Source: Halorarum salinum
Lineage (GTDB): Archaea; Halobacteriota; Halobacteria; Halobacteriales; Haloferacaceae
NCBI RefSeq assembly: GCF_013402875.1
Contig: NZ_CP058579.1
Location: forward strand, 1,364,001-1,428,000
Reading direction: 5' to 3'
Length of the DNA: 64,000 bases
Part shown: in pieces, positions 1 through 11,936 of the stretch
Position numbering within the stretch: the stretch's first letter is position 1
Layout: each line of letters opens with the position of its first letter
Program-made: the position numbers and the translations under genes
The notes under the pieces: generated by a model
Told to the model about the DNA's origin: nothing
Database searches by the model: none
Seen by the model: the letters and a program-made list of their open reading frames with translations, nothing else

Positions 1-310
1 AGTGCTCGCTCCCGTAGATAGCGGCCCCCTTCGAACAGAGCGACCCGTTGTTCACGGGGTGTTCGTGCCAGGGCTCCTGGCCCACGAACGCGTTGCCGGT
101 CCGCTCGCCGCGGAACCCGCACCCGACGGCACAGAAGTTGCAGATGGTCTTGGTCAGTTCCCCGTCCGTGTCGGTCCCGTCGGTCTCGTCGTCGGACTGT
201 GCGAGCGCGTGCCCGGCGCCGCCGCCGCCGAGCGCCACCGCCCCCGCGAGCGCGCTCGCTTTCACGAACGTCCGCCGGTCGAGGTCGAGGGAGACTGGTT
301 CGGTGCTCAT
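1..310 (-). CDS. Formate dehydrogenase-like molybdopterin oxidoreductase, alpha subunit (N-terminal part)
   Basis: Partial gene; the ATG is the complement of 308-310 and the reading frame continues beyond base 1. The 103 visible residues start with a twin-arginine signal (RRTFVK near residue 12, followed by an Ala/Gly-rich hydrophobic stretch). Then comes the N-terminal [4Fe-4S] motif of the DMSO-reductase superfamily: C57-x2-C60-x3-C64 and C92 in a CSKG context. The motif spacing and the AVGCG context fit formate dehydrogenase alpha subunits, which hold a bis-MGD Mo or W site and oxidise formate. The Tat signal implies folding before export, or at least a Tat-dependent route. It is divergent from the iron-sulfur protein and TorD-type chaperone genes that follow. 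The exact substrate cannot be settled from the N-terminus; another Mo/W-bisPGD oxidoreductase is possible. Confidence 0.85.
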   Translation of the reverse strand, partial: MSTEPVSLDLDRRTFVKASALAGAVALGGGGAGHALAQSDDETDGTDTDGELTKTICNFCAVGCGFRGERTGNAFVGQEPWHEHPVNNGSLCSKGAAIYGSEH

Positions 311-362
311 GCGCCCCCGTCGTCCCTCCACGCTGTCGGTTGCATGGTGCTAACTACCCACA

Positions 363-565: not shown

Positions 566-2731
566 ATGAACACCGGGGCGTTCGCCTGCGCGTGTGGCGG
601 GACGTGCGACGTCGACCTGGAGGCCGTCCGCGAGGGCGTGCGCGACGTCGAGGTGGCCGCGAGTTCGCGGCTCCTCTGTCGGGACGGGCTGGACTCGATG
701 GCCCACGTGATCGACGAGTACGACCTCGACCAGCTCCTCGTCACGGCCGTCGACGGGGGCTGCAAGGACCGAATCAGGGCGGTCGCCGAGGAGCAGGGGC
801 TCCACCCCGACGCCACCGCGTTCGTGGACCACCGCGAGGGGGCGGCCTGGGTCCACGACGGACCCGAGGCCACCGACAAGGTCGCGCGGCTGCTCAACGC
901 CGCGAACGCGGGGCTCCGGGCGGAAGCCGTCTCCCGGACCGTCTCGCGCGACGCGGGCGAGCGCGTGGCGGTGATCGGCGACCCCGAGACCGCGGCGACG
1001 CTCTCGGACACCGCCGACGTGACGCTCGTGGCCGACGGGAGGGACTTCTCCGGCGCGGACGGCCTGGGGGACGTGACCGTCGAGCGCGGCCGCGTGACGG
1101 CCGTCGAGGGGTCGTTCGGCGGGTTCGAACTCACGCTGGCCGCGCGGGTCACCGACGACTGCATCGGTTGCATGGAGTGCGTCCGCGAGGGGCCCGAGGG
1201 GAAGGTGACGGCCCGCCCCGTCGACGTCGACCCCGACGCCCCGGGCGGCGAGTGGGTCGACGTCTGCCCGACCGACGCGATCGACCTCGACGGCGTGACG
1301 CGTCGCCTGAGCGTCGACCAGGTGATCCACCCGGCGGGCGACTCGGGGGCGCGGGGCGGCCGGGTCGGCTACTACACCGGCCCCGTCGACGGCGCGACGA
1401 TCGCGGCCGTCGAGTCGCACCTCGGCGGCGTCGAGAAGCCGGAGTTCCTCGACCTGGAGATGGACGTCTGCGCGGCGGGCGCCTCCAGCCAGGAGGGCTG
1501 TACCGCCTGCACCGACGCCTGCCCGCACGACGCCGTCGACCGTCCGGCGGTCGACCGCGTCGAGTTCGACCCGATCGCCTGCCAGAACTGCGGGGCCTGC
1601 ACGAGCGCCTGTCCGACCGGCGCGACCATGCTGCGGGAACCCTCGAACGAGCGCATCGCCCGCGAGGTGGAGGCGTCGCTGAGAACCGAGGAGTCGGGGG
1701 GCTGGCTCCCCTGGCGGGGGTCCGAGGGGATCGGGACGCCGGTGGTCGCGTTCGTCTGCTCGGAGCGCGCCCGCGAGCGGTTGCGCGAGTACGGGCGCCG
1801 CGCCGCGCGCGGCGAGGACGGCCGGTACCCGCCGGTCCTCCCCGTGTCCGTGAACTGCACCGACACCGTGGGCGAACCCCACGTCGTGCACGCGCTGGCG
1901 GCCGGCGCCGACGGCGTCGCGGTGGTCGGCTGCGGGGACGCGTGCCTCCACTCGGGTCCCGACCCGAAGGCCGCGCTGGTCGAACGGTGCAACCGGGCGA
2001 CGGCCGACCTCGGGCTGGGCGAGCGCGTCGCCTTCCTCGCCCCGGGGGACGACCCGGCCGCGTTCGCCGCCGAACTCGCGGGGTTCGTCGACGGACTCGA
2101 CGATTCGCCGGTCCCCGCCGGCGAGCACGAGGCGACGGGCCGGATCGACGAACCGACCGCCGGCGGCGTAGGCGGGTCGCCCGCGGTCCAGGCCGACGGG
2201 GGTCGCCCGAACCCGACGTTCGACGGCCACGGTTGGACGCTCGAGTCGGTGCGGACGATCCTCCGGCACGTCGACCCCGAGCGGGACGTGATCCGCGGCC
2301 TCTCCGACTTCGGCAGCATGGAGGTGAGCGACGCCTGCAACCTGACGCCGACCTGCTCGAACCTCTGTCCGACCGACGCCGTCCGCCGCACCGACGGGGG
2401 GAACCTCGAGTTCAACCACGAACTGTGCGTCAACTGCGGCCTCTGCGAGGAGGGCTGTCCCGAGACCGCGATCACGATGCGCGACGGCCTGGACCTCTCG
2501 CTGCTCCCGGAGCGCCGGGACGGCGACCCGTGGGTGACCGTCCACGACGGCGAGATGCTGGAGTGCGTCCGATGCGGGGAGCCGTTCACGAGCGTCGGCT
2601 CCGCCGAGAAGGTGCAGGCCGAGGTGGGCGACCTCGTGGAGGGCGTCGTGCCCGGGGGCGAGCACAGCGTCTTCGAGTACTGCGGCGACTGTCGGACCAG
2701 CCTGCTCTTCGGGGGTGGGGCGGGCCGATGA
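566..2731 (+). CDS. Fused HdrA-like / MvhD-like multi-[4Fe-4S] electron transfer protein
   Basis: A 721-residue soluble protein, probably an electron carrier for the neighbouring molybdo-oxidoreductase. Residues 1-120 resemble the N-terminal domain of heterodisulfide reductase HdrA (CACGGTC at 8-14 and an HREGAAWVH block at 89-97), but the HdrA flavin domain is reduced to a short stub. Cysteine clusters follow: C199/202/205 with C234; C312/315/319; C339/342/345/349 (a ferredoxin). Residues 392-510 resemble MvhD, with C398, C431, C456 and C460 kept but the second Cys of the CxxC lost. A second ferredoxin pair has C591/597/601 and C621/624/627/631. The C-terminus has a zinc-ribbon-like C667-x2-C670 and C706-x2-C709. 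I chose ATG 566 because the HdrA-like domain begins there; an in-frame ATG at 512 gives an unlikely extension. The 3' end overlaps the next gene (ATGA). Confidence 0.85.
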   Translation: MNTGAFACACGGTCDVDLEAVREGVRDVEVAASSRLLCRDGLDSMAHVIDEYDLDQLLVTAVDGGCKDRIRAVAEEQGLHPDATAFVDHREGAAWVHDGPEATDKVARLLNAANAGLRAEAVSRTVSRDAGERVAVIGDPETAATLSDTADVTLVADGRDFSGADGLGDVTVERGRVTAVEGSFGGFELTLAARVTDDCIGCMECVREGPEGKVTARPVDVDPDAPGGEWVDVCPTDAIDLDGVTRRLSVDQVIHPAGDSGARGGRVGYYTGPVDGATIAAVESHLGGVEKPEFLDLEMDVCAAGASSQEGCTACTDACPHDAVDRPAVDRVEFDPIACQNCGACTSACPTGATMLREPSNERIAREVEASLRTEESGGWLPWRGSEGIGTPVVAFVCSERARERLREYGRRAARGEDGRYPPVLPVSVNCTDTVGEPHVVHALAAGADGVAVVGCGDACLHSGPDPKAALVERCNRATADLGLGERVAFLAPGDDPAAFAAELAGFVDGLDDSPVPAGEHEATGRIDEPTAGGVGGSPAVQADGGRPNPTFDGHGWTLESVRTILRHVDPERDVIRGLSDFGSMEVSDACNLTPTCSNLCPTDAVRRTDGGNLEFNHELCVNCGLCEEGCPETAITMRDGLDLSLLPERRDGDPWVTVHDGEMLECVRCGEPFTSVGSAEKVQAEVGDLVEGVVPGGEHSVFEYCGDCRTSLLFGGGAGR

Positions 2732-3360
2732 ACGAGGACGAGATCCACGAGGCGCGCGTCGAGGTCGTGGACTTCCTGATCGAGGCGTTCTGGGACGTCC
2801 CGGGCGAGGGGTTCGTCGAGCGCCTGCTCGGCGACGGGATCGTCCTCCCCGCCGATCCGGTGAACGACCCCATGGACGAGGGGTTCGAGATGCTCCGGCG
2901 GTGGCGCGACGCCCACCGGGGGGAGCCGGTCGAGGAGGTCCACGAGGCGCTCGAACGCGAGTACACCTCGCTGTTCGTCGGCCCGCGTCCGCCGGTGCTC
3001 CCCCACGAGACGTACTACCGGGACGACACCGACTTCATCGGGAAGGGGCTCGCGGAGGTGGAGGCGAGCTACTCCGCCGCGGGCTGGTCGCCCCCGGAGG
3101 AGTACCCGGAGGAGAACGACTTCGTCGCAGTGGAACTCGCGTTCCTCCGGCACCTCGTCGGGGTCCAGCGGGACGAGCGCGAGGAGTCGTTCGGCTACGA
3201 GCGCGTGTTCCTGGACGAGCACCTGACGCAGTGGGTCGACGCGTTCGTCGCCGACCTGCGCGAGGAGGCCGACCCCGGGCTCTTCCTCGCAGCCGGGCTG
3301 ATCCTCGCGGGGCTCGTCGAGTTCGAGGACGAACTGGTCGCGCAGGTCGTGGCCGGCTAG
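2728..3360 (+). CDS. TorD/DmsD-family chaperone for a molybdoenzyme
   Basis: A 210-residue, largely helical acidic protein whose ATG overlaps the stop of the preceding iron-sulfur gene by 4 bp, implying translational coupling. It shows TorD-family features: an LxREYTSLFVGP-like block near residues 76-88, a PHETYYR segment near 94-100, and later helices with the FVAVELAFLRHL pattern. Proteins of this family bind the Tat signal of a molybdopterin oxidoreductase and hold the apoenzyme until cofactor insertion. The obvious client is the Tat-signal-bearing formate-dehydrogenase-like subunit encoded divergently about 2.4 kb upstream. The family call rests on motif pattern and context rather than alignment. 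Confidence 0.8.
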   Translation: MNEDEIHEARVEVVDFLIEAFWDVPGEGFVERLLGDGIVLPADPVNDPMDEGFEMLRRWRDAHRGEPVEEVHEALEREYTSLFVGPRPPVLPHETYYRDDTDFIGKGLAEVEASYSAAGWSPPEEYPEENDFVAVELAFLRHLVGVQRDEREESFGYERVFLDEHLTQWVDAFVADLREEADPGLFLAAGLILAGLVEFEDELVAQVVAG

Positions 3361-4773: not shown

Positions 4774-4904
4774 GTGAAGGAGTGACTAGCTCGCGTGACC
4801 ATAGGGGTTGCGCCCCCGGTCGTCGAACGGCAGACTCGAACCGTCCGGCGAGGCTCGAACAGCCTGGCGAACCCTTTTGCCCGCGTACGCCGTTGAGCAC
4901 CCTG

Positions 4905-6116
4905 ATGCCGTCGAGACGGAGCCTGCTGGGGAGGCTCTCCGCGGCGGTGGGGGTCGCGGCCGCCGGCTGTGCCCGACTTCGGCCGCCGCCGGGACTGGAC
5001 CTCCTGGCGAACCCGCACGACGTTCCACGCCGCCAGTTCGCCCAGCGGGAGCGCCTCCGGCGCGACTCGGACGGCAACCCGCTCCAGGCGCGCCACAGGC
5101 GGGTGCTGCTGCTGGACCTCCGGCGGGAGCCGTCCGCCGAGGCCGGCCGGACCGTCGAACGGGCGTTGCGGGGCCTGGAGGGGGCGTTCGAGTGGAGTCC
5201 CGACGGGCTGTTCCACCTCCTCGCCTGGGGGACCAACTACCTCGACGAGCACGGCGCCCTCGGCAGGGTCCCGACCGAGCATCCGACGGTGCTCTCGCGG
5301 ACCGACGACCCCGACCTCCTGCGGTTCGACGCCGCGCTCGTGCTCGAATCCGACGTCCCCTCACACGTCGCGGCGGCCGAGGGCGCGCTGTTCGGCGACC
5401 GCGACGAACTGAACGGCACCCCGGTCGAGCACCGGCTCACGGACGTGTTCGACCGCCGTTCGCGCCGGACCGGATTCCTCGGCGAGGGGCTCCCGGCCGC
5501 CCACGCGGACGCGGAGGGCGTCCCCGCCGACGCGATCGCCGAGGACGCACCCATGTTCACCGGGTTCCGCTCCGGCCGCGAGGGGACCCAGGCGAGCGAG
5601 GACCGCGTGACCATCGAGGACGGCCCGCTCGAGGGCGGGACGACGATGCACCTCAGCCACCTCGCGCTGAACCTCCGCCGGTGGTACGACCGCCCGGAGG
5701 CCGACCGCGTGAAGCGGATGTTCGACGCGGAGACGACGCCCGAGGACGTGGCGGGCATGACCGATCGGGTGCCGTTCGCGAACGCGGTCGAGGCCCACGC
5801 CGGCGAGCACGGCGTGGTCGGCCACCACGAGAAGGTCGCGCGGGTCCGGGAGGACGGCGAACCGGTGATCCTCAGGCGGGACTTCAACACCGTCGACGGC
5901 GGCCGCCCTGGCGTCCACTTCCTCGCCCTCCAGCGGAGCCTGGACGACTTCCGACGGACGCGCAAGTCGATGAACGGCTGGTACCTGCGTGACGACTCGC
6001 CGGACATCACCGACCGGGTGAACAACGGCATCCTCGACGTGATCCGGGTCCGCTCGCGCGCGAACTTCGTCGTCCCGCCGCGGGAGAAGCGTGCGTTCCC
6101 GCTGACCGTCACGTAG
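4905..6116 (+). CDS. DyP-type peroxidase-like Tat lipoprotein
   Basis: 403 residues. The N-terminus has a double-arginine motif (SRRSLLGR), a hydrophobic stretch and a lipobox ending at Cys22 (AAAGC), so it is probably a Tat-exported, membrane-anchored lipoprotein. The body follows the order of DyP/EfeB peroxidases: an F-x-G-F-x-x-G block at 218-224, a GGTTMHLSHLAL strand-helix at 244-255, a possible proximal heme histidine in VGHHEK (307 or 308), then ILRRDF and a GVHFLALQ strand near 322-342. The usual distal GxxDG aspartate is Ser here (GFRSG). I chose ATG 4905 because the Tat/lipobox signal begins there; the longer in-frame ORF adds a non-signal tail. If heme is bound, it would act outside the cell membrane in peroxide or iron chemistry. 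The family link is by pattern only. Confidence 0.6.
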   Translation: MPSRRSLLGRLSAAVGVAAAGCARLRPPPGLDLLANPHDVPRRQFAQRERLRRDSDGNPLQARHRRVLLLDLRREPSAEAGRTVERALRGLEGAFEWSPDGLFHLLAWGTNYLDEHGALGRVPTEHPTVLSRTDDPDLLRFDAALVLESDVPSHVAAAEGALFGDRDELNGTPVEHRLTDVFDRRSRRTGFLGEGLPAAHADAEGVPADAIAEDAPMFTGFRSGREGTQASEDRVTIEDGPLEGGTTMHLSHLALNLRRWYDRPEADRVKRMFDAETTPEDVAGMTDRVPFANAVEAHAGEHGVVGHHEKVARVREDGEPVILRRDFNTVDGGRPGVHFLALQRSLDDFRRTRKSMNGWYLRDDSPDITDRVNNGILDVIRVRSRANFVVPPREKRAFPLTVT

Positions 6117-7082: not shown

Positions 7083-7976
7083 TCACGGATCCGAGAGCGA
7101 CCACCCGGCGCCCTCGGCGGCCTCCGCCACCGGGACGAACTCCCAGCCGGCCGCCTCGGCCCACGCGCGCTCGCCGGCGTCCTCGACGCCGACGAGCACC
7201 ATGCGCTTCGCGTAGAACATCGAGTGCTCGTCGACCTCCGCGAGCCGCTCGGCCGGCCCGGTGCCGGTGCCGTTGAAGAAGTCGAGGTCGAGGCGGTTCT
7301 CGCGCTGGAACTTCGTGAGGACGTGGGCGTCCACGTCGCCGACGATGCCGACCCAGTCGGTCCACGTCTCGGCGTCCGCGAGCGCTGCGTGGAGGTCCTC
7401 CAGCCGCCGGATCGCTACGTAGGAGATCGCCATCGTCATCTCGTCGGCGCCGCCGCCGTGGGGGCCCGAGGCGTCCGGTTGCTGCTGGGTCCCCTCCTCG
7501 CGGGCGTCGGCCGGGACGCCCCCGCCGCCGCCCGACTCCATCGGGATGCCGACCGGCCTGTCGTCGTTCGTGTACGGGACCCGCGGGGTCGCGGGTGGCC
7601 GGTCGTCGGTGCCGTTAGCGTCGTCGGAGACGTACGCCTCGGAAGCGGCGGGCGCGTCAGCGGCGGGGATGTCGGGCGAAACGACGCCCGACGATTCCGC
7701 CGCCGTCGAGCCCGCATCGGGGTCGCCCGTCTCGTCGCTACCCCCGTCGACCCCCTCAGTCGCCTCGCCGTCGGCGTTCGCGACCGCCGCGTCCGCGAGG
7801 CCGCCTACCCCCTCCTCGTCGGACGGCGCGGGAGCGGACGACTCGGTCGGGCCGTCCCCTCCGTCAGTCGGGCCGTCCCCGCCGTCGTTCCGCCAGAACC
7901 AGTCGCCGCGGTTCGGGCGGTCCTCCCCGTCCCCGTTCGAGACGTCCAGTTCGTCGAGGTCGATGCGGTCAGTCAT
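7083..7976 (-). CDS. Haloarchaeal protein with long disordered acidic N-terminus (DUF7124-like) coupled to an AOR gene
   Basis: 297 residues. Residues 1-165 are low-complexity Asp/Gly/Ser/Pro-rich and probably disordered. The globular C-terminus starts near MTMAISY and contains an alpha/beta domain (LTKFQRENRLDLDFFNGT, then RMVLVGVEDAGE). I believe this matches the haloarchaeal DUF7124 family, from memory. The ATG overlaps the 3' end of the aldehyde ferredoxin oxidoreductase homologue by 8 bp, so the two are almost certainly co-expressed. It has no cysteines and thus no Fe-S centre; a scaffold or redox-independent partner role is inference. Confidence 0.7.
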   Translation of the reverse strand: MTDRIDLDELDVSNGDGEDRPNRGDWFWRNDGGDGPTDGGDGPTESSAPAPSDEEGVGGLADAAVANADGEATEGVDGGSDETGDPDAGSTAAESSGVVSPDIPAADAPAASEAYVSDDANGTDDRPPATPRVPYTNDDRPVGIPMESGGGGGVPADAREEGTQQQPDASGPHGGGADEMTMAISYVAIRRLEDLHAALADAETWTDWVGIVGDVDAHVLTKFQRENRLDLDFFNGTGTGPAERLAEVDEHSMFYAKRMVLVGVEDAGERAWAEAAGWEFVPVAEAAEGAGWSLSDP

Positions 7977-9783
7977 GGGTGGTCGAGTCGGCCGATCCGA
8001 CCGAGTCGGTCGGGTCGTCGTCGGTCCTGCGCTCGTCGGTCGGATCTTGGCCCGACGGGAGCGCGTCGGTCGACAGGTCGAGGCGGTCGCAGGTCGCCGG
8101 CGTCGGGACCCCGTCGGCGGTCCAGCCGCGGGCGGCGTAGTAGGCGTCGAGCAGGCGGTCGAACGCCCCGGGGTCGACCGCACGCCCCGCCGCCGGGGCG
8201 TCGCCCTCCGGGAGCGACTCGCCGAACCACTCGGGGAGCGCGTCGTCCGATCGGTCGAACCCCTCGCGGACGTTGAACAGGCGGACGAGCGTCCACACCC
8301 GCTCGCCCACCCGGTCGAGGTCGTCGTGCGGGACGTCCAGCGCGTCGAGCCACTCGGCGCCGCGGTCGTCCCACAGCGTCTCGCCGGCGAAGTCGTCGAC
8401 GACGAGGCTCCAGAGCACCGAGCGGGCGTTCTGGGCCTCGACGACGGCCCGAACGTCGTCATCGGCGTCGTCGTCCTCCCGGAACACGGCATCCTCGATG
8501 GGACGGGCCCGCCGGTGGCAGCCGCCACGGTCCGACGTCGCGTACGCGAGCGCCATGCCGGGCGCACCCCGCGGGTCGTACGCCGGCAGCTCCATCGACT
8601 TCACGGTGGGCACGAAGTCGTCGCCGCCGTAGCGCGCCGCGGCCTCGTCGACGCCGTCGGCGAGCGCGTCGGCCAAGTCGCCCTCCCGCCGGGCGATGCG
8701 GCCGACGAGTTCGCGGGCGGCGGCCCCGTCGCCGAACTCGAATCCCGCCTCGCCGGCGCGGACCGCCCAGGCGACGGCGTTGCCCGCGGTGATGACGTCG
8801 ACGCCGAGGCGGTCGCACGTCTCCCCCAGCGCCGCGACGGCGTCGAAGTCGTCGAGCCCGAGCCCCGCGCCGAGGGTCATCGGCGCCGCGCCCCGCGGGA
8901 TCGTCTCTCCCTCGTCGGTCTCGATGCGGAAGCCGCCCGGGACCGCCTCGTCCGGGTTCTCGCGGCCGACCGCGGCGTCGGCGGCGGCCTCGATGCCGAT
9001 GCCGTCCACGTCGGTCGCCGTCTCCCGCCAGCCCCGGGCCGGGAGCACCCCGACCTCGGCGGCGAAGTCGACCGACTCCAGGGTCTCGCCGGCGGCCTGC
9101 CAGCGCCCGACGTCGTCGTCGACGAAGGCGGCCCCGTCCCGCTCGTGGAGGTCAGCCAGCGCGTCCGGCACCTCGGGGGCGTCGCCGCGCGCGACGACCG
9201 CCTCGAGGTTCTTCGCGCCCATGACGGCCCCCGCCCCGCCGCGGCCGGCGTGGTGGTCGCCGCCGTCGGAGGCGATCGTCGCGTACGCCACCTCCGCCTC
9301 GCCAGCAGGGCCGACGCAGGCGACCGCCGCGTCCGGGTACGCCGCGTCGGTCTCGACGGTGTCGGCGCCGGCGAGGTCGCCCGCGGGTTCGAGCCGCGGC
9401 TCCCCGTCGCCGACGACGAGCGCCGTCGGCTCGGCCGCCTCGCCCTCGACGACGACGCCGAGGCAGGCGGGGAGCGACCCGGCGAGGCGGTCGGGGAACG
9501 CCCCGCCCGAGTAGGAGTCGAGGAACGCGCCCGTCAGCGGCGACTTCGTCACCGCGGCGTAGCGCGACTCGCCGGGGAGCGCCCCCGAGAGCGGGCCGAG
9601 CAGGAAACAGAGCAGGTTCTCGGGCCCGAGCGGGTCGGCGCCCGCCGGGAGCTCCTCGTACAGGTAGCGCGCGCCGAGCCCCTTCCCGCCGAGGTAGCGG
9701 CGGCGCCACGCGTCGGGGACGCGTTCGAACCGGACCTCGCCCGCCCCGAGGTCCGCCCGGAGGACCCGCGTTCGTCCGTCCAT
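7969..9783 (-). CDS. Aldehyde ferredoxin oxidoreductase family protein lacking the [4Fe-4S] cysteines
   Basis: 604 residues, full family length. Family blocks are well kept: GGKGLGARYLYEELP near 32-46, VTKSPLTG near 78-85, GDHHAGRGGAGAVMGAKN near 175-192, and ELPAYDPRGAPGMALAYAT with RGGCH near 398-423. These surround the tungsto- or molybdo-bispterin site. The CxxCxxxC block that in Pyrococcus AOR reads CYACPIGC is replaced by a cysteine-free segment (residues about 272-300), and the fourth ligand near residue 461 is Val. Either it does not bind the cluster or it does so differently. The 3' end overlaps the DUF7124-like gene. The enzyme normally oxidises aldehydes with ferredoxin; the acceptor here is uncertain. 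The gene lies in a Mo-cofactor neighbourhood (mobA, yqeC, TorD). Confidence 0.85.
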   Translation of the reverse strand: MDGRTRVLRADLGAGEVRFERVPDAWRRRYLGGKGLGARYLYEELPAGADPLGPENLLCFLLGPLSGALPGESRYAAVTKSPLTGAFLDSYSGGAFPDRLAGSLPACLGVVVEGEAAEPTALVVGDGEPRLEPAGDLAGADTVETDAAYPDAAVACVGPAGEAEVAYATIASDGGDHHAGRGGAGAVMGAKNLEAVVARGDAPEVPDALADLHERDGAAFVDDDVGRWQAAGETLESVDFAAEVGVLPARGWRETATDVDGIGIEAAADAAVGRENPDEAVPGGFRIETDEGETIPRGAAPMTLGAGLGLDDFDAVAALGETCDRLGVDVITAGNAVAWAVRAGEAGFEFGDGAAARELVGRIARREGDLADALADGVDEAAARYGGDDFVPTVKSMELPAYDPRGAPGMALAYATSDRGGCHRRARPIEDAVFREDDDADDDVRAVVEAQNARSVLWSLVVDDFAGETLWDDRGAEWLDALDVPHDDLDRVGERVWTLVRLFNVREGFDRSDDALPEWFGESLPEGDAPAAGRAVDPGAFDRLLDAYYAARGWTADGVPTPATCDRLDLSTDALPSGQDPTDERRTDDDPTDSVGSADSTTHD

Positions 9784-10441: not shown

Positions 10442-11134
10442 ATGGATGAGGCGACGGTCGAGGGGTCCGGGACGACGGAAGGGACCGAGGACTCCAACGG
10501 AGCGGAACGCCGGTACGCCGTCGTGATCGCGGGCGGACGTTCGACCCGCTTCGGCGATAGCGACAAGGCCGTCGCCCCGCTGGCCGGGACGCCGATGATC
10601 CGCCGCGTCGCCGACCGCCTCGCCGGCGTGACGGACCGCCTGGTGGTGAACTGCCGGCCGGACCAGCGCGAGGCCATCGCCGACGCGCTCGCGGGCTACC
10701 CGAACCCGGTGCGGTACGCCGAGGACGAGGAACCCGACCTCGGGCCGATGGCCGGCATCCGGACCGGCCTCAGGGGGGTGGAGGCCTGGGGCGGGCCGGA
10801 CGCGCTCGCGTTCGTCGCCGCCTGCGACATGCCGTTCCTCGACCCCGGCCTCGTCTCGCACCTGTTCGACCGCGCCGCCGACCGCGACGCGGCGGTGCCC
10901 CGCCTCGACGACGAGTGGTTCCAGACGACCCACGCGGTCTACCGCGCCGGCCCGATGGCCGACGCCTGCGACGCCGCGCTCGCCGAGGGGGAGGGGAAGA
11001 TCATCGCGCCGCTGTTCGAACTCGACCACGCCGTCGTCGAGGAGGACGAGGCGCTCCGGTACGCGGACGAGTCCACCTTCGAGAACCTCAACACCCGGAA
11101 GGAGTTCGAGGCGGCGGCCGAGCGGTTCGGGTGA
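10442..11134 (+). CDS. mobA: Molybdenum cofactor guanylyltransferase
   Basis: 230 residues. After a 24-residue acidic leader the nucleotidyltransferase signature appears (VIAGGRSTRFGDSDKAVAPLAG near 28-49). It is followed by the EEPDLGPMAGIRTGL block near 98-112 and the AACDMPFLDPG Mg-binding segment near 125-135. MobA transfers GMP from GTP to Mo-molybdopterin to make the MGD cofactor used by formate dehydrogenase and other DMSO-reductase-family enzymes, such as the one at the left edge. The length fits the family with a short N-terminal extension. The start is the first ATG after the palindrome-rich tract. A cytidylyl- or other sugar-phosphate nucleotidyltransferase is less likely given the LGPMAG block. 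Confidence 0.9.
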   Translation: MDEATVEGSGTTEGTEDSNGAERRYAVVIAGGRSTRFGDSDKAVAPLAGTPMIRRVADRLAGVTDRLVVNCRPDQREAIADALAGYPNPVRYAEDEEPDLGPMAGIRTGLRGVEAWGGPDALAFVAACDMPFLDPGLVSHLFDRAADRDAAVPRLDDEWFQTTHAVYRAGPMADACDAALAEGEGKIIAPLFELDHAVVEEDEALRYADESTFENLNTRKEFEAAAERFG

Positions 11135-11201: not shown

Positions 11202-11936
11202 CTAGCGAACCACGTCCACGACCTCGCCCTCGCCCATCCGCGCGACGACGACCCGGTCGATCCGCCCCGACCCGTCCGCCGCCAGCGCCGCCTCCGCGAC
11301 GTCGCGAGCGACCGACTCGAGCGCCTCGTCGTCGGCCTTGTTCACCAGCGGAACCGCGGACGCGCCCTCCGGCACGCCCTTCAGTCCTCCCTCCGGCGAC
11401 GCGAGCACTTCGCCCACGGCCTCCGCGGTGATCCCGTCGCCCGGTTCGAGCCCCGTGATCGCGCTCACGCGCTCGGGTCGGTGGACCGCCTCGTCCGACA
11501 GGGGCTTCCCGACCGCGCGGACCGAGGCGACCGGAATCACGGCGTCCGCCCCCGCCGGAACCTGGGGCTCGCGGTCGCTCGGCGCCTTGAACTCGCGCAT
11601 CCGGGCACCGTCGGCCTTCACGAACGCGGGGCCGTCGTGGCCCGCCGCGAGGTCGTCGACCGTCTCGCGGTCGTACCCGTGGTAGCGGTCCGAGCGCTCC
11701 CGTTCGGGGACGAGGCCGAGCGGGAAGTCGTCGGGCGCGGCTTCCCGGAGCGCGGCCCCCGGGTCGTCGGTGACGACCACCCGGGAGACGTGCTCGTCGA
11801 AGATGGGGATGCGGACCGTGGCGGTGACGACCGCCCGGTCGGCGCCCCTCGCGAGCGCGTACAGCGTGGTCTTCTTGCCGCCGGCGCCGACGACCGCGAC
11901 GAGGCCGTCGGCCGGGAGCGCCTCGGTCGGGGTCAT
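11202..11936 (-). CDS. yqeC: YqeC-like putative selenium/molybdenum-hydroxylase accessory protein
   Basis: 244 residues. The N-terminal nucleotide-binding loop VVGAGGKKTTLYALA (about residues 14-28) is the YqeC signature. It is followed by FVKADGARMREFKAPSDREPQVP (about 108-130), which is very characteristic of the family. YqeC proteins are linked by genome context to selenium-dependent molybdenum hydroxylases and cofactor handling; the biochemical activity is not established. ATG 11934-11936 overlaps the stop of the peroxiredoxin gene by 4 bp. It is convergent with mobA, keeping the Mo-cofactor theme. Confidence 0.85.
   Translation of the reverse strand: MTPTEALPADGLVAVVGAGGKKTTLYALARGADRAVVTATVRIPIFDEHVSRVVVTDDPGAALREAAPDDFPLGLVPERERSDRYHGYDRETVDDLAAGHDGPAFVKADGARMREFKAPSDREPQVPAGADAVIPVASVRAVGKPLSDEAVHRPERVSAITGLEPGDGITAEAVGEVLASPEGGLKGVPEGASAVPLVNKADDEALESVARDVAEAALAADGSGRIDRVVVARMGEGEVVDVVR

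Follow-up and report, generated by a model that had tools for sequence, protein, structure and literature searches.

The aldehyde ferredoxin oxidoreductase (AOR) of Pyrococcus furiosus (PDB 1aor) is the prototype of the AOR/WOR family. A 2026 survey that divides the family into 92 clades describes the residues coordinating its pterin and [4Fe-4S] cofactors as varying very little, and reports that Thr243, Glu313, Tyr427 and His448 are conserved in most aldehyde-oxidising members (PMC13328260). We found no mention of a clade without the cluster in the passages of the survey that we consulted, and no description of one in the literature searched, of which coverage was partial. Here we describe an AOR homologue of Halorarum salinum that lacks all four cysteine ligands of the cluster, its relatives in the order Halobacteriales, and the genes that accompany it.

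The window analysed is a stretch of 64,000 nucleotides of the H. salinum genome (NZ_CP058579.1, positions 1,364,001 to 1,428,000). On its reverse strand, at 7972..9783 and followed by a stop codon at 7969-7971, lies an open reading frame of 604 aa that matches both AFOR_N (198 bits) and AFOR_C (276 bits) in Pfam, as a full-length AOR of the family fold does, and whose best PDB match is Pyrococcus AOR (1.8e-72 across residues 6-560). The Pfam scan returned AFOR domains only, and no FdhD-NarQ domain. When the [4Fe-4S] ligands are aligned on 1aor, C288 corresponds to D278 (8950-8952), C291 to V281 (8941-8943), C295 to F285 (8929-8931) and C494 to D463 (8395-8397); the first three lie in the CxxCxxxC segment, CYACPIGC in Pyrococcus and DEAVPGGF here (8929..8952, reverse strand). 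The original prediction of a full-length AOR without its cluster cysteines, and with the usual exit for electrons lost along with them, is borne out. It had given the fourth ligand as Val; that ligand is indeed lost, but C494 aligns with Asp463 and the Val is its neighbour, one position off.

Two further losses had escaped the original prediction. PRGA (8887..8898, reverse strand) replaces the P-E/D-Y/F-E motif, with Glu311 changed to Arg297 and Glu313 to Ala299 (8887-8889), and the former DxxGLC motif now reads WSLVVD (8395..8412, reverse strand), with Trp458 (8410-8412) in place of Asp489. Thr243, Tyr427, His448, Arg76 and the pterin-binding blocks are still present. The active-site His448 is His423 (8515..8517, reverse strand), within RGGCHRRARP, and ahead of the RGG pterin block the sequence DHHAG (residues 176-180; 9244..9258, reverse strand) puts His177 and His178 in place of Arg182 and Ala183. 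An AlphaFold2 model of the protein, made with two input sequences only, had a mean pLDDT of 32.

Relatives were sought in 392 genomes of Halobacteriales, and 63 distinct cluster-less sequences from at least ten family-level groups of haloarchaea were read. Loss of cysteine proved universal in this haloarchaeal clade, as all four ligands are missing by alignment in 63/63 relatives. The replacements are shared as well: in every one of the 63, position 295 is Phe or Tyr, 311 is Arg, 312 is Gly, 313 is Ala, Gly or Ser, and Trp and Asp stand at 489 and 494, whereas position 313 is acidic in 33/33 Cys-bearing relatives. His448 is kept in 63/63, Thr243 in 62/63 and Tyr427 in 59/63 (Phe in the rest), and the two new histidines of DHHAG are found in 63/63 and 62/63. 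A substitute cluster formed from other cysteines was rejected. The only cysteines common to all 63 relatives, C323 and C422, make up no substitute set, and because they correspond to C337 and C447 of Pyrococcus AOR, where both occur alongside a normal cluster, cysteines that have shifted and still fill the cluster pocket are unlikely.

The cluster was lost once, from Cys-bearing relatives that survive in a few haloarchaea. A tree was built of 53 sequences, 27 of them cluster-less; these 27 make up a single clade with support of 100, and the label changes once. The H. salinum genome carries four AOR genes, of which the other three (L001, L003 and L004) keep both CxxCxxxC and the fourth Cys, and the loss is therefore specific to this paralogue. 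Closest to the clade in the tree are the Cys-bearing L048 and L097, then L098, which comes from another order of the same phylum; L148, L151 and others were placed with this sister group by motif reading. Because L098 has Trp at 489 together with its cysteines, Trp489 can coexist with a cluster, and it may have arisen before the cluster was lost. The Cys-bearing sister AORs (L048, L096, L097, L113, L148 and L151) are rare in haloarchaea, and their neighbours are varied, with apparent aldo/keto reductase, ABC transporter and amidase genes as judged from sequence only.

Within the clade the pterin and active-site blocks, a list that we chose from motifs and contacts of the Pyrococcus enzyme, average 0.06 bits/column, where the overall figure is 1.1 and the former cluster loop has 1.38. 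In length that loop ranges from 19 to 67 residues in the clade and from 23 to 37 in Cys-bearing AORs; two relatives, L051 and L052, have big acidic insertions in it, as expected of a loop released from cluster binding. Comparison of the H. salinum gene with five relatives gave dN/dS values of 0.26-0.43, and no relatives were found in viral contigs. The protein appears to be functional without the cluster and probably still uses the cofactor pocket, cofactor binding being argued for by the retention of the pocket blocks.

The gene downstream encodes a DUF7124 protein (7083..7976, reverse strand; PF23439, 127 bits), and its start overlaps the AOR stop in an ATGA-type junction. As the original prediction stated, its translation contains no Cys; the further claim that no replacement Fe-S partner is adjacent holds for this gene only, with a polyferredoxin-like protein at 566-2728 and a formate dehydrogenase (FDH) Fe-S subunit just to the left of the window. 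The gene for the former (566..2731, forward strand) encodes an FlpD domain and lies, like the gene for a NarJ/TorD-type molybdoenzyme chaperone (2728..3360, forward strand; PF02613, 96.6 bits), about 5 kb from the AOR gene. The start of a Tat-exported FDH alpha subunit (1..331, reverse strand) continues left of the window (L140:11108-14332), and the alpha, Fe-S and cytochrome b subunits of this FDH lie just outside it on that side. In several genomes the AOR and FDH genes have between them a conserved gene for a DUF7405 protein (4782-6116 here), whose N terminus bears a Tat-like RR motif. On the other side of the AOR gene are a MobA-like nucleotidyltransferase (10442..11134, forward strand), which matches NTP_transf_3 while MobA models score below cut-off, and YqeC (11202..11930, reverse strand; PF19842, 105 bits).

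YqeC is an uncharacterised protein whose gene is known to mark the vicinity of selenium-dependent molybdenum hydroxylases (PMC2276186, PMC11448449). In 21 neighbourhoods, YqeC was found within about 7 kb of the Cys-less AOR gene in 9, an FDH alpha subunit in 9 and a MobA homologue in 8. The adjoining FDH alpha subunits belong to three architectures (Tat/membrane, NuoF-linked and stand-alone), a range easier to reconcile with an accessory protein than with a subunit; the listed gaps between AOR and FDH alpha go down to 23 bp. In 34 of the 38 genomes for which both coordinates were tabulated, over 8 family-level groups, the AOR and YqeC genes are at most 5 kb apart. At the Cys-bearing sister loci, with flanks of 4-5 kb, there was no FDH, YqeC or MobA, nor was there at several canonical AOR loci, a weaker control with flanks of about 1.5 kb.

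Across the 392 genomes, presence of the Cys-less AOR was called from a best E below 1e-95, with ambiguous genomes resolved separately, and the co-occurrence and distance tables for YqeC, FDH and genera were transcribed by hand from search output. YqeC is present in 204/206 genomes with the Cys-less AOR and in 52/186 without it; the two exceptions are genomes that are 77% and 85% complete. The association holds within 12 genera of mixed state (CMH p = 1e-16), where no YqeC-free genome holds the Cys-less AOR. FDH follows a less clean pattern, in 182/206 genomes with the AOR and 36/186 without, as scored by a profile that also matches other Mo enzymes, with two candidates per genome and a cut of 1e-280 set by eye. 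YqeC is also found in 215/218 of the genomes scored positive for FDH. This suggests that in haloarchaea YqeC is tied to formate dehydrogenase, beyond the selenium-dependent hydroxylases.

FdhD is the usual protein for sulfuration and delivery of the FDH cofactor. A profile search for FdhD (PF02634) gave 0/51 in haloarchaeal genomes, most of them scored as FDH carriers, with positive controls in E. coli, methanogens and Sulfolobus, and a second model gave no convincing match in 12 haloarchaeal genomes; the absence is one seen by profile searches, which a very divergent protein could escape.

We tentatively favour a reading in which this AOR has become, in haloarchaea, a non-redox carrier of the pterin cofactor or a maturation factor for FDH. 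One haloarchaeal AOR lineage would have shed the [4Fe-4S] cluster and the catalytic Glu while retaining the pterin-cofactor pocket, and would most likely have abandoned aldehyde oxidation; the loss of both the cluster and Glu313 removes the known electron route and a conserved catalytic acid. The protein would probably bind a pterin cofactor with Mo or W, transferring no electrons, and would serve FDH maturation as carrier, guard or insertion platform. Linkage to FDHs of several architectures, to YqeC and to MobA argues for such an accessory role, in which YqeC, MobA and TorD-type chaperones would be the partners, in organisms without a detected FdhD. For E. coli TorD, an interaction with both MobA and Mo-pterin has been reported (PMC10609526). 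A more specific version, that the AOR and YqeC together take over from FdhD, loading the pterin cofactor of haloarchaeal FDH or sulfurating it, we consider unlikely. The original prediction had left a choice between a different electron acceptor and a pseudo-enzyme. Both stay in play, and the evidence shifts towards a pseudo-enzyme in the specific sense given here, because Glu313 is lost, the pocket blocks are extremely constrained and the gene has its ties with FDH, YqeC and MobA instead of with aldehyde metabolism.

Several points count against a role in maturation. The cluster-less AOR is missing from 36/218 genomes scored positive for FDH, and FDH can presumably mature without it. Mo/W enzyme genes often cluster, and the linkage to FDH may for that reason be indirect. 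Retention of His448, Tyr427 and Thr243 is unneeded for pure carriage and counts against a carrier; the loss of Asp489 is a further point, with the qualification that the Cys-bearing L098 already has Trp there.

The near-unchanged Thr243, Tyr427, His448 and pterin blocks would also be accounted for by an active, Fe-S-free bis-pterin W or Mo enzyme of other chemistry in the same C1/formate context, possible but somewhat improbable in our estimate. Such an enzyme might be non-redox (hydration or isomerisation), or might exchange electrons with a soluble partner directly at the metal site, as DMSO/TMAO reductases do. New invariant charged residues that lie near the site in sequence (Arg297, Arg424, Arg425, His177 and His178) would suit it, and working Mo/W-bisPGD enzymes that have lost an FeS cluster are known (PMC10609526). 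It is hard to square with the change of Glu313 from an invariable acid in Cys-bearing relatives to a small residue throughout the clade, with the lack of a consistently adjacent cytochrome or reductase partner, and with the three FDH architectures, which speak against a fixed electron partner.

The same linkage and co-occurrence would suit a pseudo-enzyme with a structural or regulatory part in the FDH system, that is, an inhibitor, a sensor of the pterin cofactor or a scaffold, acting through DUF7124 in Haloferacaceae and their relatives. A homologous DUF7124 gene occurs at many Cys-less AOR loci, where the overlap of the two genes recurs. We judge this quite unlikely, as near-invariant pocket blocks favour real use of the cofactor and DUF7124, present in 390/392 Halobacteriales, is far more widespread than the cluster-less AOR. 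That near-universal distribution weakens DUF7124 as a dedicated AOR partner; it is one copy of DUF7124 that is coupled by overlap to the AOR gene. AlphaFold2 on the DUF7124 domain alone gave a pLDDT of 49. A decaying gene or a sequencing error, which the missing ligands and Glu313 and a few split or fragmentary-looking relatives might bring to mind, can be dismissed given an intact reading frame, identical replacements in 63 distinct relatives of many families, the dN/dS values and the invariant pocket blocks.

A widespread clade without the cluster is a natural experiment on the purpose that the cluster serves. Taken with the apparent absence of FdhD, the ties of the clade to FDH and YqeC point to a way of maturing FDH that has gone unrecognised, and to a role for YqeC. 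What is new here is that the cluster-less clade adjoins YqeC, MobA and FDHs of three architectures.

Compared with known systems, the haloarchaeal homologue resembles Pyrococcus AOR in full-length homology, pterin blocks, Arg76, Thr243, Tyr427 and His448, and differs from it in the cluster cysteines, in Ala for Glu313 and in Trp for Asp489. WOR83 of Haloferax volcanii (PDB 9q1t) and BmWOR, of clade 83, are likewise haloarchaeal AOR-family proteins, with a close relative, L001, in the H. salinum genome; L001 keeps all its cluster cysteines and forms with L064 and L065 a clade that branches elsewhere in the tree, the three being assigned to clade 83 by resemblance to 9q1t only. The Cys-bearing sister group (L048, L096, L097, L113, L148 and L151, with L098 outside the order) contains the nearest relatives, L048 at 49% identity, and its haloarchaeal members have the motifs HHAGRGG and SDRGGCH in common with the clade; unlike the cluster-less AORs, it has retained CxxCPxxC, GPEYE and the fourth Cys and was not found beside FDH, YqeC or MobA. 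FdhD, TorD/NarJ and other molybdoenzyme maturation proteins are alike in the proposed role only, delivery of cofactor to FDH; their families are unrelated to AOR, and the searches of haloarchaea gave no FdhD. The DMSO/TMAO reductases that lack FeS offer a precedent for a bis-pterin protein that dispenses with its cluster, but they belong to a different superfamily, and their cofactor is the nucleotide (MGD) form.
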